38,521 nucleotides of DNA. It comes from an uncultured euryarchaeote (lineage in GTDB: Archaea; Thermoplasmatota; Poseidoniia; Poseidoniales; Poseidoniaceae). Position 1 is the first letter of the stretch, and every line of letters starts with the position of its first letter. The stretch lies in assembly GCA_937911345.1 (NCBI GenBank), contig CALDPP010000070.1, positions 1-38,521 of the forward strand, in the 5' to 3' direction. Both the position numbers and the translations under genes were made by a program. Under the pieces are notes generated by a model. It saw only the letters and a program-made list of their open reading frames with translations, ran no database searches and was not told the origin of the DNA. Positions 10,316 through 16,390 of the stretch are shown here, in pieces.

Positions 10316-10324
10316 GTGAAATCG

Positions 10325-11155
10325 ATGATAGTAAAATCCCCCGTTAACGAAAATGAAAAGTTTTCATCATGGAAATCAACAATTGGAAGAGTCGCTTTCA
10401 TGAACTGTGATCCATTGTTCTTGAAACTAAGTAAGGAGTGGAATGTTTTGGCTGCTCCACCATCATGGTTAACGGGTCATCTATTACGGAGAGATTGTAT
10501 TATCGCACCAATTCCTGCTGCAGATTATGCTAAGAATTCTGATGATTTGATTTTGTTACCAAATCTGGGTATTTGTTCAAAAGGAGAGGTTGGAAGCGTG
10601 TTATTATTTGGTTCCAAGCCGATTGAAGAAATGGAGCATATCGCGCTTCCATCAGATTCTTCATCATCTGTAGCATTGATGAAATTTATCTTGAAGCAGA
10701 AAAACTTGAATCCTGTCCTAACAGTCATGGGTCCTGACATTGATAAAATGTTAGAGTCATCCGATGGAGCATTAATTATTGGTGATAGGGCATTGGATGC
10801 TTCTAAAATACACCCAGAAAAAGTAAGATTAGATTTAGGGATGGAATGGCAGAGAATCACTGGTAAACCAATGGTTTTTGGAGTATTCGCAACTAGGAAA
10901 GATACCCCCATTGTGAGTGTAAAACTAGCTTATATTTCGCTGTTAGAGCAATTAACTGAATTCGAGTCTAATCCTGATAGAAGAGGTTTGATTGTTCAAC
11001 TATCATCACAAGATTCAGGGCTCAGTACCTCTAGGTTAGACCAGTACTTTAGTGAAGTCTTCAATCGATTGGATGAAGAACATATAATCGGATTGAATAG
11101 ATTTCTCCATGATGCATGTGGTCTAATCAAAGGTGCTGAATTTCTAAAATTCTAA
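10325..11155 (+). CDS. mqnA: Chorismate dehydratase MqnA
   Basis: A protein of 276 residues from ATG 10325, belonging to the MqnA/MqnD periplasmic-binding-protein-like fold. The N-terminal motif IGRVAFMNCDPLF (~20-32) is the typical MqnA opening, followed by ADYAKNSDDLILLPNLGI and a GDRALDA block. MqnA dehydrates chorismate to 3-[(1-carboxyvinyl)oxy]benzoate, the first committed step of futalosine-dependent menaquinone synthesis. The ATG has AGGTG at 10314-10318, six bases upstream; an in-frame GTG at 10316 would start directly on the mqnE stop and lacks such spacing. The gene ends overlapping the convergent propeller gene by 4 nt. The C-terminal part is more divergent than the N-terminal part. 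Confidence 0.85.
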   Translation: MIVKSPVNENEKFSSWKSTIGRVAFMNCDPLFLKLSKEWNVLAAPPSWLTGHLLRRDCIIAPIPAADYAKNSDDLILLPNLGICSKGEVGSVLLFGSKPIEEMEHIALPSDSSSSVALMKFILKQKNLNPVLTVMGPDIDKMLESSDGALIIGDRALDASKIHPEKVRLDLGMEWQRITGKPMVFGVFATRKDTPIVSVKLAYISLLEQLTEFESNPDRRGLIVQLSSQDSGLSTSRLDQYFSEVFNRLDEEHIIGLNRFLHDACGLIKGAEFLKF

Positions 11156-13410
11156 TCATCTTTCTTAACGGTTCTAACCTTTCTAACTTTCTTAGTGTTT
11201 GCAACTTTTCTAGTCTTTACTGTACCGACTGTCTTTTTCTTTGATATCTTTTGTTCTCCAGGAATATCTAATTTACCGTCTAATCGTTTTCGTTTCGTAG
11301 ACATAATTGGGCCTTGAGCATTTCGATTCATTCTTCCAGCACGCCTTTTCACTTGGCTCTCGGAGTTTGTACTTTCATCATCCAAAGTAAACGCTCTTCT
11401 ATCTGAAGGCTTTTCTTCAGCTGGTATTGATTCAGATACAATTGAATCCTCCTCGTAATCAATTGAAACATAATTGACATCCTCTATTGGTTGTGGCTTA
11501 CTGTACTCTTCAACCTCATCTTCATAATCCTCATTTGAAATATCTTCCATCAAATCAACATTCTCATCATTTTCCTCTGCATCTTCGAATTCTGATTCGT
11601 CTAAAATAAGTGAGTTGAGATTTTTTCTCCGAATTAATAACCATATACTCAATGCAATTGTTGTTAATGCTAAGACTATCAATAGATAATTTTCAAACAT
11701 AAGATCAATAAATGAATTAATATTTGTTTCATCTAAATTATTACTTGTGAAATTTAACAATGGGTCTTCAGATGCTCCACTATTCCACCAAAGGCTGAAG
11801 AATATCTCTTCATCTGTATTGATTTGTTGAATTAATATTGGATGATTCTCCACTTTGTGAGTTATTGATGATTCTACTACGGAGATTTGTGTATTTAATG
11901 AAACAGTCAAAGGTAATGTTACATTTGGTTGAACATCAAAACTAGTTTTTATTGAGAATTTTATCTGTTCTTTGTCATAAGTTTTTGTGAATGATAAACC
12001 TGCAATTATGTTGCATTGTAACGTCCCGTTTTTCACTTCACCAACTGACAAATCAATAGAGTCTCTTAATTTTTGGATGTAATCATTTTGGTCCATATTA
12101 TTGCAAAATGCATCTTCTAGCATATTTGTTTCTTCATAACTTATTCTCTGATCAGATATAATTCCTCTACGCGTCAGATTTCTAAACAGATAAGTGTCGG
12201 ACTGTGACATTGTGTAGATGTCCTCGACCATCAGTGTGTCTCCTGAAATTTCAATCACCATGGAACGGATTGTTTCTAAATCAGGATCTCTACTACAGAC
12301 TGTTGAATTCAAACAGTTAAAATCATAATCATCCTCAAAAGAATCTCCATCATCATCTTTGTCAATACTGTCTGGTATGTTATCTCCGTCCAAATCAGAA
12401 CCCATCATGCCATACCCATCTGGATACTCAGGGCTGCCGTATACCGCAATGTGGTTGGAATCAGTAGCCACAAATACATGACTTAGCATTCCGTTTGTCT
12501 CGACAATAGCGAAATCAAGAGACTTGTGCATAAGATGTGTAATGTGAATAATTTCGAAAGTAGAACCGTCTAGAGCAATGACAGATGGGTTTGAGTCTGA
12601 TTCTAAGACATATAGAATATCTTCATCATCTGACCATTTTATCCCATGATTGTCTCCCAAGTTCAATGATTGCAACGATGAACCCGTTATAGTGTATGAA
12701 AAGATATTTCCAGTAGTGGTTGATATAGCGAATTTCGCATCTAAGGTGCTAAAGTCACAACCAACTATCTCTTCCTCTACATCGATGTCAATATTTGTTA
12801 GTTCACCGTCTGCGTTCCATACCTTTACTTTACCACTCTCATCACCTGTAATGACATAGTTACCCGTTTTCGAGAAACCTGTACACGTCACGTCCGAGGT
12901 ATGTTCACCATTCAATGTTGCAATTTCATTCATAGTAATAGAATTCAATATCTGTGCCCCATTGTTCATATTTGGAGCGATAATTTTAGCGCCATCTGGT
13001 GAATAGTCTAGGTTTCCCGGCCGGTTATTTCCTTTAGCTTGTGCGGATAGTAGATCGAGGTTCTCCACGTCAATTACCCTAAGAGAATCGGGGATAGCCT
13101 CGTTTGCTGACATACTTGCTGCTAGATATTTTCCATCTGGAGAAAATTCTATGTGATATAATTCCCTTCCAAAGTCAAATCTCTTTATTAGTTCGAGAGA
13201 AGAAGAGTTATGAAATTCAATGAAAGTACTGTATGAACTTGCAATTATTGTTTGATTTTCATTTATTGACACAGAATTGGTATGAGCGTCAGCCTTGTCA
13301 GAAACAGTTGCATCGAGGAAATTAATACCGGATGAAGTCGAACTTGCGAATGGCATCGTGAAAATAAGCACAAAAACTACAACTGTGGTGATGCATATTC
13401 TGCTCCGCAT
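11152..13410 (-). CDS. Membrane-anchored beta-propeller (WD40-like) protein with a TSP3-like linker and charged tail
   Basis: A 752-residue predicted exported protein. A signal peptide at ~1-25 (hydrophobic VVVFVLIFTMPFA) is followed by a beta-propeller of WD40/YVTN type (~30-330), with repeats such as IEFSPDGKYLA, LDYSPDGAKII and VTGDESGKVKVWNADG. A calcium-type Asp-rich stretch (SDLDGDNIPDSIDKDDDGD, ~338-357) links to a ~200-residue domain I do not recognise. A single membrane helix (YLLIVLALTTIALSIWLLI, ~575) ends in RRK, and the last ~150 residues are first very acidic and then very Lys/Arg-rich. Topology is probably propeller outside, charged tail inside. The gene lies convergent between mqnA and, through a shared upstream region, mqnD. 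Molecular role unknown. Confidence 0.75.
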   Translation of the reverse strand: MRSRICITTVVVFVLIFTMPFASSTSSGINFLDATVSDKADAHTNSVSINENQTIIASSYSTFIEFHNSSSLELIKRFDFGRELYHIEFSPDGKYLAASMSANEAIPDSLRVIDVENLDLLSAQAKGNNRPGNLDYSPDGAKIIAPNMNNGAQILNSITMNEIATLNGEHTSDVTCTGFSKTGNYVITGDESGKVKVWNADGELTNIDIDVEEEIVGCDFSTLDAKFAISTTTGNIFSYTITGSSLQSLNLGDNHGIKWSDDEDILYVLESDSNPSVIALDGSTFEIIHITHLMHKSLDFAIVETNGMLSHVFVATDSNHIAVYGSPEYPDGYGMMGSDLDGDNIPDSIDKDDDGDSFEDDYDFNCLNSTVCSRDPDLETIRSMVIEISGDTLMVEDIYTMSQSDTYLFRNLTRRGIISDQRISYEETNMLEDAFCNNMDQNDYIQKLRDSIDLSVGEVKNGTLQCNIIAGLSFTKTYDKEQIKFSIKTSFDVQPNVTLPLTVSLNTQISVVESSITHKVENHPILIQQINTDEEIFFSLWWNSGASEDPLLNFTSNNLDETNINSFIDLMFENYLLIVLALTTIALSIWLLIRRKNLNSLILDESEFEDAEENDENVDLMEDISNEDYEDEVEEYSKPQPIEDVNYVSIDYEEDSIVSESIPAEEKPSDRRAFTLDDESTNSESQVKRRAGRMNRNAQGPIMSTKRKRLDGKLDIPGEQKISKKKTVGTVKTRKVANTKKVRKVRTVKKDD

Positions 13411-13541: not shown

Positions 13542-14420
13542 ATGGCCAATCAACTTGAACAAGACGCAGAAGGCAACTACATCGTTAGAATCGGCCATTC
13601 ACCTGACCCGGATGACGCATTTATGTTTCACGCTATGACCAATGGTAAATTCCCAACACCTGGATATCATTTCGTTCACGAACTTCAAGATATTGAGACA
13701 TTGAATCATCGTGCTATGAACCAAGAATTGGAAGTTTCTGCAGTGTCAATTCATGCTTTTCCCGATATAGCAGAACATTACAGTTTGATGAACTGTGGTG
13801 CTTCTATGGGTGAAGGCTATGGGCCGATGATTGTGTGTAAAGAAGGAGTCACAATGGAACAAGCTAAAAACTCGAAAATTGCGGTACCTGGCTTGAAAAC
13901 TAGTGCGTACCTTGGCTTGAGATTAGCATGGGGTGATGTCGAAGTTGAAGTTGTGCCATTTGATGAAATAATTCCACGTATTCTTGATGATACTTATTTG
14001 TCAGGTTTAATTATTCATGAAGGGCAATTGACTTATGTTGATTATAATCTAGATGTATTGATTGACATTGGCAAATGGTGGAACAACAGAACAGACAATT
14101 TCCCTATGCCTCTTGGCGGTAATGTAGTAAGAAAAGACCTTGGAGATAAGATGATGGAAGATATCACAAACTACACAAAGATGAGTATAGAGTATGCAAT
14201 AAATAATCCAGATGAAGCACTTGAATTTGCTAAAAAATGGGGCCGTGGTATCGATGATGATACAAACCGGAAATTTGTTACGATGTATGTAAATGATAGA
14301 ACAATCGATTACCGGGAAGATGGAAGATCTTCAATAAAGCAGTTTATCTCCGAAGGGCAAGCAATCGGGCTGATTGATGCTAAGTTCAATGTTGAAGAAA
14401 TGAGATTTATAGGGGAATAG
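13542..14420 (+). CDS. mqnD: 1,4-dihydroxy-6-naphthoate synthase MqnD
   Basis: A 292-residue member of the MqnA/MqnD family. The opening IGHSPDPDDAFMFHAM (~17-32) is the MqnD-type signature, and GLIIHEGQLTY contains His159 at the position of the family's catalytic histidine. MqnD converts cyclic dehypoxanthine futalosine to 1,4-dihydroxy-6-naphthoate, a late step of menaquinone synthesis by the futalosine route. mqnE and mqnA are ~2.4 kb upstream; mqnB- and mqnC-type genes are not in this window and must lie elsewhere if the pathway is complete. The next gene starts 2 nt after the stop and so is probably in the same transcript. Assignment to MqnD rather than MqnA rests on the N-terminal motif and the His-containing motif. 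Confidence 0.85.
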   Translation: MANQLEQDAEGNYIVRIGHSPDPDDAFMFHAMTNGKFPTPGYHFVHELQDIETLNHRAMNQELEVSAVSIHAFPDIAEHYSLMNCGASMGEGYGPMIVCKEGVTMEQAKNSKIAVPGLKTSAYLGLRLAWGDVEVEVVPFDEIIPRILDDTYLSGLIIHEGQLTYVDYNLDVLIDIGKWWNNRTDNFPMPLGGNVVRKDLGDKMMEDITNYTKMSIEYAINNPDEALEFAKKWGRGIDDDTNRKFVTMYVNDRTIDYREDGRSSIKQFISEGQAIGLIDAKFNVEEMRFIGE

Positions 14421-14422
14421 GC

Positions 14423-14902
14423 ATGCCAAATAAACCGAAAATTAGTCAATATGGCTCGGTTGATCCAGCACCCCCCCTAAAGTCAGGAAAAATTTCGCAG
14501 TGGGAATCAACTTTGACAAACCCAGGTGTTCCAATGTTTCAAAGAATGAGGAACGTATTTTCTCTAAGGAATGATGGTTCTGACGCTGCATGTATTGCAT
14601 TATGTTCTGGATTTAACTCGGACAGCGCATTACTTCGTCATGAAGTTGCATATGTATTGGGGCAGATGCAGAATGAAGTTGCTATCCCAACATTGATTGA
14701 GGTGCTAAGCAACGAAACGGAGCACGTTATGGTTAGGCATGAAGCTGCTGAAGCGTTAGGTGCAATAGGGAATTATGAAGTTAAACCAACGTTGGAGAGG
14801 TTTGTTAATCACCCAATGCCTGAAATCGCTGAATCTTGCGAAGTAGCAATTGACCTGCTTGATTGGTGTAAAAGCAAAGAGTATCAAGAAGTCGATTGTT
14901 AG
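14423..14902 (+). CDS. Half-length deoxyhypusine hydroxylase-like HEAT-repeat protein
   Basis: A 159-residue protein. After an unstructured N-terminus, residues ~38-148 are HEAT/PBS-lyase repeats that read like one half of eukaryotic deoxyhypusine hydroxylase (DOHH): RMRNVFSLRN, ALLRHEVAYVLGQMQ, VMVRHEAAEALGAIG and a final ESCEVAIDLLDW. It has two His-Glu pairs, His73-Glu74 and His106-Glu107, 33 residues apart, the same spacing as in each half of human DOHH, where four such pairs bind a diiron centre. Human DOHH is about 302 residues, two tandem halves; this is one. A homodimer could rebuild the site; that is inference. DOHH completes hypusine on eIF5A. The gene starts 2 nt after mqnD and is followed by a zinc-knuckle gene and PriS. 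A generic HEAT scaffold is the alternative. Confidence 0.7.
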   Translation: MPNKPKISQYGSVDPAPPLKSGKISQWESTLTNPGVPMFQRMRNVFSLRNDGSDAACIALCSGFNSDSALLRHEVAYVLGQMQNEVAIPTLIEVLSNETEHVMVRHEAAEALGAIGNYEVKPTLERFVNHPMPEIAESCEVAIDLLDWCKSKEYQEVDC

Positions 14903-14946
14903 ACAAATTCAATAACTACTGGGTGTACGAAGGAATAGGGAGAAAA

Positions 14947-15156
14947 ATGCCTCACGATAATGTACAATTAGCTCAAGCGCCAAATGGTGAGATTGGTCCA
15001 AGATGCAAAGTATGTGGCATTCGTATGACATTTGGCGCAGCGATGGTAATCAACAATAATTACTACTGCTGGGAGTGTTATGTCGCAGAAACAGGTGCAG
15101 AATCTGCAACTAAGATTGTTGAAGCAGAACAAAGATTCTGGATGGCTAACGAATAG
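14947..15156 (+). CDS. Small zinc-knuckle protein, function unknown
   Basis: A 69-residue protein from ATG 14947 (MPHDNVQLAQ), preceded by an AGGGAG ribosome binding site. An in-frame TTG at 14896 would add 17 residues and overlap the preceding gene, which I consider less likely. It holds one treble-clef or ribbon-like metal site, CKVCG ... CWEC, with 18 residues between the pairs, followed by a short helix. I do not recognise a named family. It sits between the DOHH-like gene and PriS on the same strand with a 28-nt gap to PriS, so it is likely in the same operon; a nucleic-acid or protein-binding adaptor is possible but not shown. Confidence 0.6.
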   Translation: MPHDNVQLAQAPNGEIGPRCKVCGIRMTFGAAMVINNNYYCWECYVAETGAESATKIVEAEQRFWMANE

Positions 15157-15184: not shown

Positions 15185-16390
15185 ATGTTTTCCTCTGGCT
15201 GGGCTCGCTTTGCGCATCAGTTCACGAATTACTATCGTAACTCAACACTATGGTCTCCACCAAGAACTAGATTTAGAGAATGGATGTTTATTCCGTTTGG
15301 CAACAGTCCTCCAATAAGACATAAGGCCTTTTCTGATGTTGAAGGCGTAAGACAATTCATAACGCAACGTCCGATGCATTCTTGCTTTTACTCTACGGCA
15401 TATTGGCATAAGCCGTATGAAATGAAAATGGTAGAAAAAGATTGGATAGGTGCCGACTTAATCTTTGACTTAGATGGCGACCACCTGCCAGGCGTTACTG
15501 ATCGTGATTTTCCGGCAATGATTGAAGTTATACAAGAGCAAGCTCATACGCTATGGAATGATTATTTAGAACCAGAATTTGGATTTAATGAAAAATACTT
15601 GCAGGTTACTTTTTCTGGCCATCGGGGATTTCATCTCCACTATAGAGACCCAGCACTATTTCAACTTGATTCGGAAGCAAGAAGAGAAATTGTGTCTCAC
15701 ATAAGAGGTGAAGATGTCGACGTAAAGAGTAGCTTATCACGATATCATCTTGGTGATCGGACTGGGTGGGCTTCCAGGATAAATCGTGGAATGGAGGAAG
15801 TAGTCAAGAAATTACAGTCAATATCTAGAAAAGAAAAAGGCTACACAACAATTCTTGAGGATATGCATGAGGGTCTAAAATCACAGGCACGGAGGGAAAA
15901 TAGGGCCTCCTCCAAAGGCAAAACATCAATACAAAACCTGGGAGATTTATTAGTTAATGAACAGCGCTCAAGCCGACTACTACAGGGAAACTTTGGCGTC
16001 TTAGACCGCTATGAATCACTATTCTTAGATATCTTAAAAACCGACACCTCGGTAGTTTTGTCCAATGCTGGAGAAGCCGATGAAGTGGTAACTATTGATG
16101 TTAGGAGGCAGATACGTTGGCCAACATCACTACATGGCAAATCAGGTTTGCGTGTGACAGAATTTCCTCTGTCTCGCCTAGACCCAGACGGTTCTAGGCC
16201 ATTCGATCCGCTAAGTGAAACTATCGCATTACCGAATACTAATTCTTTATCAGTTGAAATAACTCAAGAGGATTGTAGATTCAGATTTTTTGAACGTGAA
16301 TGGGAGCCTAATTCGGGCGATATTATTGATGTTCCAGAAGCAACAGCTACATTTTTAATTTTGAAGGGATGGGCTAAGGTAGCCAAATAA
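15185..16390 (+). CDS. priS: DNA primase small (catalytic) subunit PriS
   Basis: A 401-residue archaeo-eukaryotic primase catalytic subunit. The metal-binding acidic motif is FDLDGDHLPG (Asp95, Asp97, Asp99), the nucleotide-binding motif is SGHRGFHLHYRD (~144-155), and the C-terminal core has RWPTSLHGKSGL (~310), all in the right order for PriS. It makes RNA/DNA primers at replication forks with the large subunit PriL, which is not in the window. Only two cysteines exist in the whole protein (67 and near 381), so the zinc knuckle usually found shortly after the first acidic motif appears to be absent. The start is the ATG at 15185, 28 nt after the zinc-knuckle gene. A T7 run lies 30 nt past the stop. 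Confidence 0.92.
   Translation: MFSSGWARFAHQFTNYYRNSTLWSPPRTRFREWMFIPFGNSPPIRHKAFSDVEGVRQFITQRPMHSCFYSTAYWHKPYEMKMVEKDWIGADLIFDLDGDHLPGVTDRDFPAMIEVIQEQAHTLWNDYLEPEFGFNEKYLQVTFSGHRGFHLHYRDPALFQLDSEARREIVSHIRGEDVDVKSSLSRYHLGDRTGWASRINRGMEEVVKKLQSISRKEKGYTTILEDMHEGLKSQARRENRASSKGKTSIQNLGDLLVNEQRSSRLLQGNFGVLDRYESLFLDILKTDTSVVLSNAGEADEVVTIDVRRQIRWPTSLHGKSGLRVTEFPLSRLDPDGSRPFDPLSETIALPNTNSLSVEITQEDCRFRFFEREWEPNSGDIIDVPEATATFLILKGWAKVAK

Follow-up and report, generated by a model that had tools for sequence, protein, structure and literature searches.

Hypusine, an uncommon amino acid formed by modification of a translation factor, is finished by the enzyme deoxyhypusine hydroxylase (DOHH). A short gene in a genome of the Poseidoniales (Marine Group II; assembly 86% complete) raises the question whether a protein corresponding to only one half of DOHH could perform this step in archaea. 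An archaeal DOHH orthologue was stated to be not known (PMC5178350; PMC6105217; PMC3306375), and our full-text searches, which covered few subscription journals and no preprints, turned up no description of one. The gene, referred to as the half-gene and its product as half-DOHH, is located in a contig of 38,521 nucleotides that was analyzed at its full length and is called the window here (Table 1).

The gene and its product

Translation of the reading frame gives exactly 159 residues followed by a stop, whereas the opposite strand is closed by many stops. This confirms the initial annotation, which was made from the sequence alone and had described a protein of 159 residues with two His-Glu pairs 33 residues apart; the pairs are found at positions 73/74 and 106/107, within LLRHEVAYVLGQMQ and MVRHEAAEALGAIG. 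The archaeal origin assumed in the same annotation agrees with the nearest named matches, which were Candidatus Poseidoniaceae and Euryarchaeota MAGs. A contig scan with the window protein returned close relatives only, and the named GTDB matches among them were Candidatus Poseidoniaceae or Poseidoniales MAGs. The N-terminus of half-DOHH, SQYGSVDPAPP, matches the sequence PYLSVDPAPP, which links one half of human DOHH to the other.

Table 1. Features around the half-gene, in coordinates of the window
Feature	Position	Strand	Remark
MqnA, futalosine menaquinone route	10316-11155	+	PF02621, near the half-gene
Large WD40 beta-propeller protein	11152-13410	-	between MqnA and MqnD, on the opposite strand
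MqnD-like menaquinone (futalosine pathway) protein	13542-14420	+	directly upstream of the half-gene, 2-bp gap
Half-size DOHH relative	14423-14902	+	159 aa; four predicted HEAT hairpins
SVDPAPP motif, N-terminal, residues 12-18	14456-14476	+	corresponds to the inter-half linker of human DOHH
First His-Glu pair, H73-E74	14639-14644	+	human DOHH equivalents H56-E57 and H207-E208; unchanged in all 36 copies
G80	14660-14662	+	human DOHH equivalent is G214, which binds substrate (also G63); invariant
Second His-Glu pair, H106-E107	14738-14743	+	corresponds to H89-E90 and H240-E241 of human DOHH; invariant
86-aa ORF, two CxxC motifs	14896-15156	+	conserved between the half-gene and the primase gene
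DNA primase small subunit PriS	15185-16390	+	syntenic marker for the tree and the gene-loss check

Two neighbors deserve mention in their own right. The WD40 protein has an apparent transmembrane stretch and a charged C-terminus, and its place is conserved although its sequence has diverged (22-50% identity). The 86-aa ORF, which may start at a downstream ATG instead of the TTG, has no family assignment and stays beside the primase gene in both families of the order, even after loss of the half-gene.

Similarity to DOHH in sequence and predicted fold

Human DOHH was the top match among solved structures in a phmmer search (E = 8.1e-67), with 119.8 bits for its C-terminal and 106.2 bits for its N-terminal half; the match to the C-terminal half starts at residue 4 and takes in the linker motif SVDPAPP. 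Pfam domains HEAT_2 and HEAT_PBS were detected on half-DOHH, but the NCBIfam cut-offs for phycobilin lyases were missed by far (NblB, 26.5 bits versus 300; CpcE, 22.9 versus 330). An AlphaFold2 model built from a 36-row alignment reached a pLDDT of 94.3 and consists of eight main helices forming four HEAT hairpins. Foldseek ranked human DOHH first for this model, with a TM score of 0.87-0.88 over the query and 0.49 over the target, an rmsd of 1.4 and 43-44% identity. Artificial alphaReps came next (22-25% identity), and the remaining listed matches were alphaReps or other repeat proteins with smaller query TM scores and about 16-27% identity. The reading as one half of DOHH, already proposed in the initial annotation, is thus upheld by sequence as well as by predicted fold (TM 0.88), and the HMM and structure searches suggested there clearly prefer DOHH over phycobilin lyases and other HEAT proteins. 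We rejected an identity as generic HEAT protein or phycobilin lyase (NblB, CpcE), because the scores are well under the curated cut-offs. Canonical DOHH is defined by eight HEAT repeats arranged as tandem halves, with all four His-Glu pairs in one chain, an architecture that the 159-aa protein does not have, and we therefore class it as a half-size relative and not as a canonical DOHH.

In human DOHH, the irons are anchored by the six residues H56, H89, E90, H207, H240 and E241, and the substrate side chain is bound by E57, E90, E208, E241 and G214 among others (PMC9117371). The text of that paper prints G65 for the glycine of the N-terminal half; in the numbering used here, it is G63 that aligns with G214. 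The iron and substrate positions map to H73, E74, G80, H106 and E107 of half-DOHH, which are invariant in an alignment of 36/36 archaeal copies from eight families; divergence among these copies reaches 38% identity. Four positions at which missense changes cause human DOHH disease (P152, N184, P223 and I249; PMC11203672) map to P18, N50, P89 and I115, and the respective residues are kept in 26, 31, 34 and 32 of the 36 copies. Judged by its residues, a single chain comprises exactly half of the known DOHH site.

Distribution and copy number

An order-level search detected the half-gene in 112 of 146 Poseidoniales genomes, distributed over 16 of 21 genera and both families. When 390 genomes of the phylum were searched with a profile, nine further genomes, belonging to six other families, gave strong matches to a single half (E = 1.4e-43 or better). 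All copies in these six families are single halves, most of them with an (S/T)xDPAP N-terminus, and a two-half form of DOHH was not seen in any of the 390 genomes. Weak matches of 35-50 bits in the phylum (e.g. G211, L110) resemble common multi-HEAT proteins; L110, which was checked at full length, has neither DPAPP nor the His-Glu pattern. Scans of a viral collection with the archaeal profile and the human C-terminal half yielded no relatives, and a plasmid scan yielded no relative of half-DOHH.

A second half-gene was present neither in the source genome nor in the complete, one-contig genome of a relative (G002), indicating that there is no split partner. Long open frames in G158 and G179 were rejected as second halves, and the additional copies in G030, G098, G100 and G131, which appear to stem from duplicated or foreign contigs of the MAGs, were not accepted as paired halves.

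Deoxyhypusine synthase, aIF5A and the proposed reaction

Two genes of the DHS family are present in the source genome. One of them (L039) retains the catalytic SWGK motif, and the other lies in a cluster with agmatinase, SpeD-like and SpeY-like genes (L040, contig C12 of the same genome, 1486-3810, minus strand), an arrangement described for Poseidoniales with an arginine-decarboxylating SpeD (PMC10407285). Within the order, DHS was detected in 145 and aIF5A in 118 of 146 genomes. The initial annotation had named both genes as partners to look for: deoxyhypusine synthase was indeed found in the source genome, whereas aIF5A was not found in the source assembly (86% complete) and was recovered from relatives (118/146). 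From the sequences of these relatives, the source organism would be expected to possess aIF5A as well; in the close relative G074, the aIF5A loop reads SKSKPGKHGSAK.

We consider it probable that half-DOHH hydroxylates deoxyhypusine on aIF5A and does so as a homodimer with a di-iron site. Two identical chains would meet face to face, each contributing H73, H106 and E107 to the set of six ligands that hold two irons in human DOHH; E74 and G80 from both chains would help to hold the deoxyhypusine side chain. DHS would first attach the aminobutyl group to aIF5A, and half-DOHH would then use O2 to hydroxylate deoxyhypusine on aIF5A to hypusine. Since each genome contains one half-gene, a homodimer is the simplest way to arrive at four His-Glu pairs; we infer the dimer, the iron, the substrate and the reaction. 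The half-gene adjoins menaquinone genes and not DHS or aIF5A, and it is dispensable, being absent from many relatives that possess DHS and aIF5A.

Gene loss and the aIF5A loop

We read 100 aIF5A loops and scored the hydroxylase locus of the respective genomes as intact, as decayed, or as lost where its absence was evident at the locus itself. In G059, G044 and G027 (L240, L230 and L237), fragments or stops between intact neighbors mark decayed half-genes, which represent loss in progress. The loop KSKPGKHGSAK was altered in 11 of 18 genomes that have lost the half-gene, compared to 1 of 64 genomes with the half-gene. On the primase tree, the half-gene changed its state 11 times and the aIF5A loop eight times. 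Among nine independent pairs, five were concordant, none was discordant and four showed no difference (sign test, p = 0.0625, the minimum reachable with five informative pairs). The commonest change replaces K by T five residues before the modified lysine. In the source genus (63 genomes), the half-gene was present in 24 of 30 genomes with the K loop and 4 of 17 with the T loop (Fisher p = 2e-4, uncorrected for kinship), and the six K-loop genomes without a match to the half-gene are incomplete MAGs. The rule is not strict, as G088, G422, G426 and G427 combine a T loop with the half-gene. Eukaryotic IF5A, in eukaryotes that have DOHH, carries T at the same position, so T in the loop is no barrier to DOHH. 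One MAG (G424) contained both K-loop and T-loop aIF5A sequences, which may reflect contamination (4%) or a second copy. The covariation is suggestive of an altered constraint on the aIF5A loop after loss of the second modification step, and it is the sole evidence here that connects half-DOHH with aIF5A specifically and not just with the DOHH family.

Alternative functions

HEAT domains are general binding scaffolds, and the dispensability of the half-gene would also suit a non-catalytic scaffold or chaperone that has kept the motif by descent. We regard this as distinctly improbable, because ligand and substrate positions are invariant although the proteins diverge to 38% identity, and a scaffold would have no need of all five residues across eight families. 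A DOHH-like hydroxylase with another substrate, either a free polyamine such as homospermidine made by SpeY or another protein, would be in line with the second DHS paralogue in the agmatinase-SpeD-SpeY cluster of the source genome, which means that more than one aminobutyl product may exist. Such a function is unlikely, since the substrate residues equal those of human DOHH, the only known substrate of which is eIF5A, the half-gene is unlinked to the spe cluster and the loop covariation indicates aIF5A.

The neighborhood of the half-gene raises a further alternative, namely that a di-iron hydroxylase co-transcribed with MqnD was recruited to the futalosine pathway and acts on a naphthoquinone precursor or product. 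Nearly all inspected Poseidoniales, whichever of the two families they belong to, have the half-gene directly behind MqnD even though its surroundings are rearranged; MqnA, which like MqnD belongs to PF02621, and a radical-SAM-like protein are encoded nearby. However, in G093 and G145 the half-gene lies beside the primase gene as elsewhere, but a PF02621 protein (MqnA/MqnD) is missing. Conversely, 15 genomes have retained MqnD and its neighbors at the locus while the half-gene is gone (G010, G012, G022, G037, G080, G121, G094, G125, G034, G009, G019, G109, G038, G015 and G122). In the six other families, the neighbors of the half-gene are unrelated (VIT1 transporter, formyltransferase, M28 peptidase, PurH), and the conserved residues of half-DOHH are those for deoxyhypusine. 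Because the half-gene and MqnA/MqnD were each lost without the other, we rejected a function in menaquinone synthesis, which appears most improbable to us, and the adjacency to MqnD is probably incidental. Several genera (g9 and, in part, g14 and g15) lack the entire PF02621 set, which suggests repeated loss of menaquinone synthesis in Poseidoniales.

Origin of the single half

If half-DOHH is a deoxyhypusine hydroxylase, its relation to the two-half enzyme needs to be considered. Tentatively, and with less than even confidence, we propose that a single-domain homodimer was the source of eukaryotic DOHH by duplication and fusion and serves as the hypusine hydroxylase of these archaea; half-DOHH is a possible pre-duplication form. 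That the archaea instead gained a shortened eukaryotic DOHH, consisting of the C-terminal half and the linker, by transfer is conceivable but somewhat doubtful, and would be compatible with the hydroxylase function. The SVDPAPP motif is common to the archaeal copies and the human C-terminal half and is absent before the human N-terminal half, which fits both histories. At 71 sites where the human halves differ, the archaeal consensus agrees with the C-terminal half in 20, with the N-terminal half in 13 and with neither in 38 cases, but the difference between 20 and 13 is not significant. Over 120 core columns, mean archaeal identity was 45.8% to the N-terminal and 48.3% to the C-terminal half, compared to 40.8% between the two human halves. 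In a tree of halves with human DOHH as sole eukaryotic sequence, the two human halves form long branches of the same length (4.87 and 4.82) that emerge near the deepest archaeal fork, a placement that carries a long-branch warning. Because eukaryotic DOHH is limited to the human structure, the root of this tree is not fixed. A recent gain from eukaryotes is made less likely by how deep the archaeal diversity goes and by the occurrence of the half-gene in eight families.

Significance and comparison with known systems

Some archaea make hypusine, and half-DOHH, a DOHH relative that is widespread in abundant marine archaea, provides one lineage with a definite candidate enzyme for the missing step. 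As a candidate minimal di-iron hydroxylase with built-in two-fold symmetry, the half-size form offers a test of how the two-half eukaryotic DOHH arose. The natural losses among close relatives additionally provide matched pairs for addressing what hypusine does in comparison to deoxyhypusine.

In Sulfolobus (PMC6105217) and Haloferax (PMC5178350), hypusination likewise involves DHS and aIF5A, but in these reports the second step was unassigned and archaea were stated to have no DOHH homologue, whereas a homologue exists in Poseidoniales. The PBS-lyase HEAT-like proteins (CpcE, CpcF, NblB) and the alphaRep designs share the HEAT scaffold and the Pfam HEAT_2 and HEAT_PBS matches with half-DOHH, but differ by low scores and 21-25% identity, and a bile pigment context is absent around half-DOHH. 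Human DOHH (PDB 4d4z) and yeast Lia1 share the HEAT hairpins, the His-Glu pairs 33 residues apart and the motifs RHE..YVLGQ, MVRHE.AEALGAI and DPAPP, and one half of human DOHH additionally shares the predicted fold (TM 0.88). While eukaryotic DOHH has two halves, four His-Glu pairs and about 300 residues, the archaeal protein has one half, two pairs and 159 residues, and in contrast to the eukaryotic enzyme, the archaeal half form, known here from sequence, would have to dimerise.
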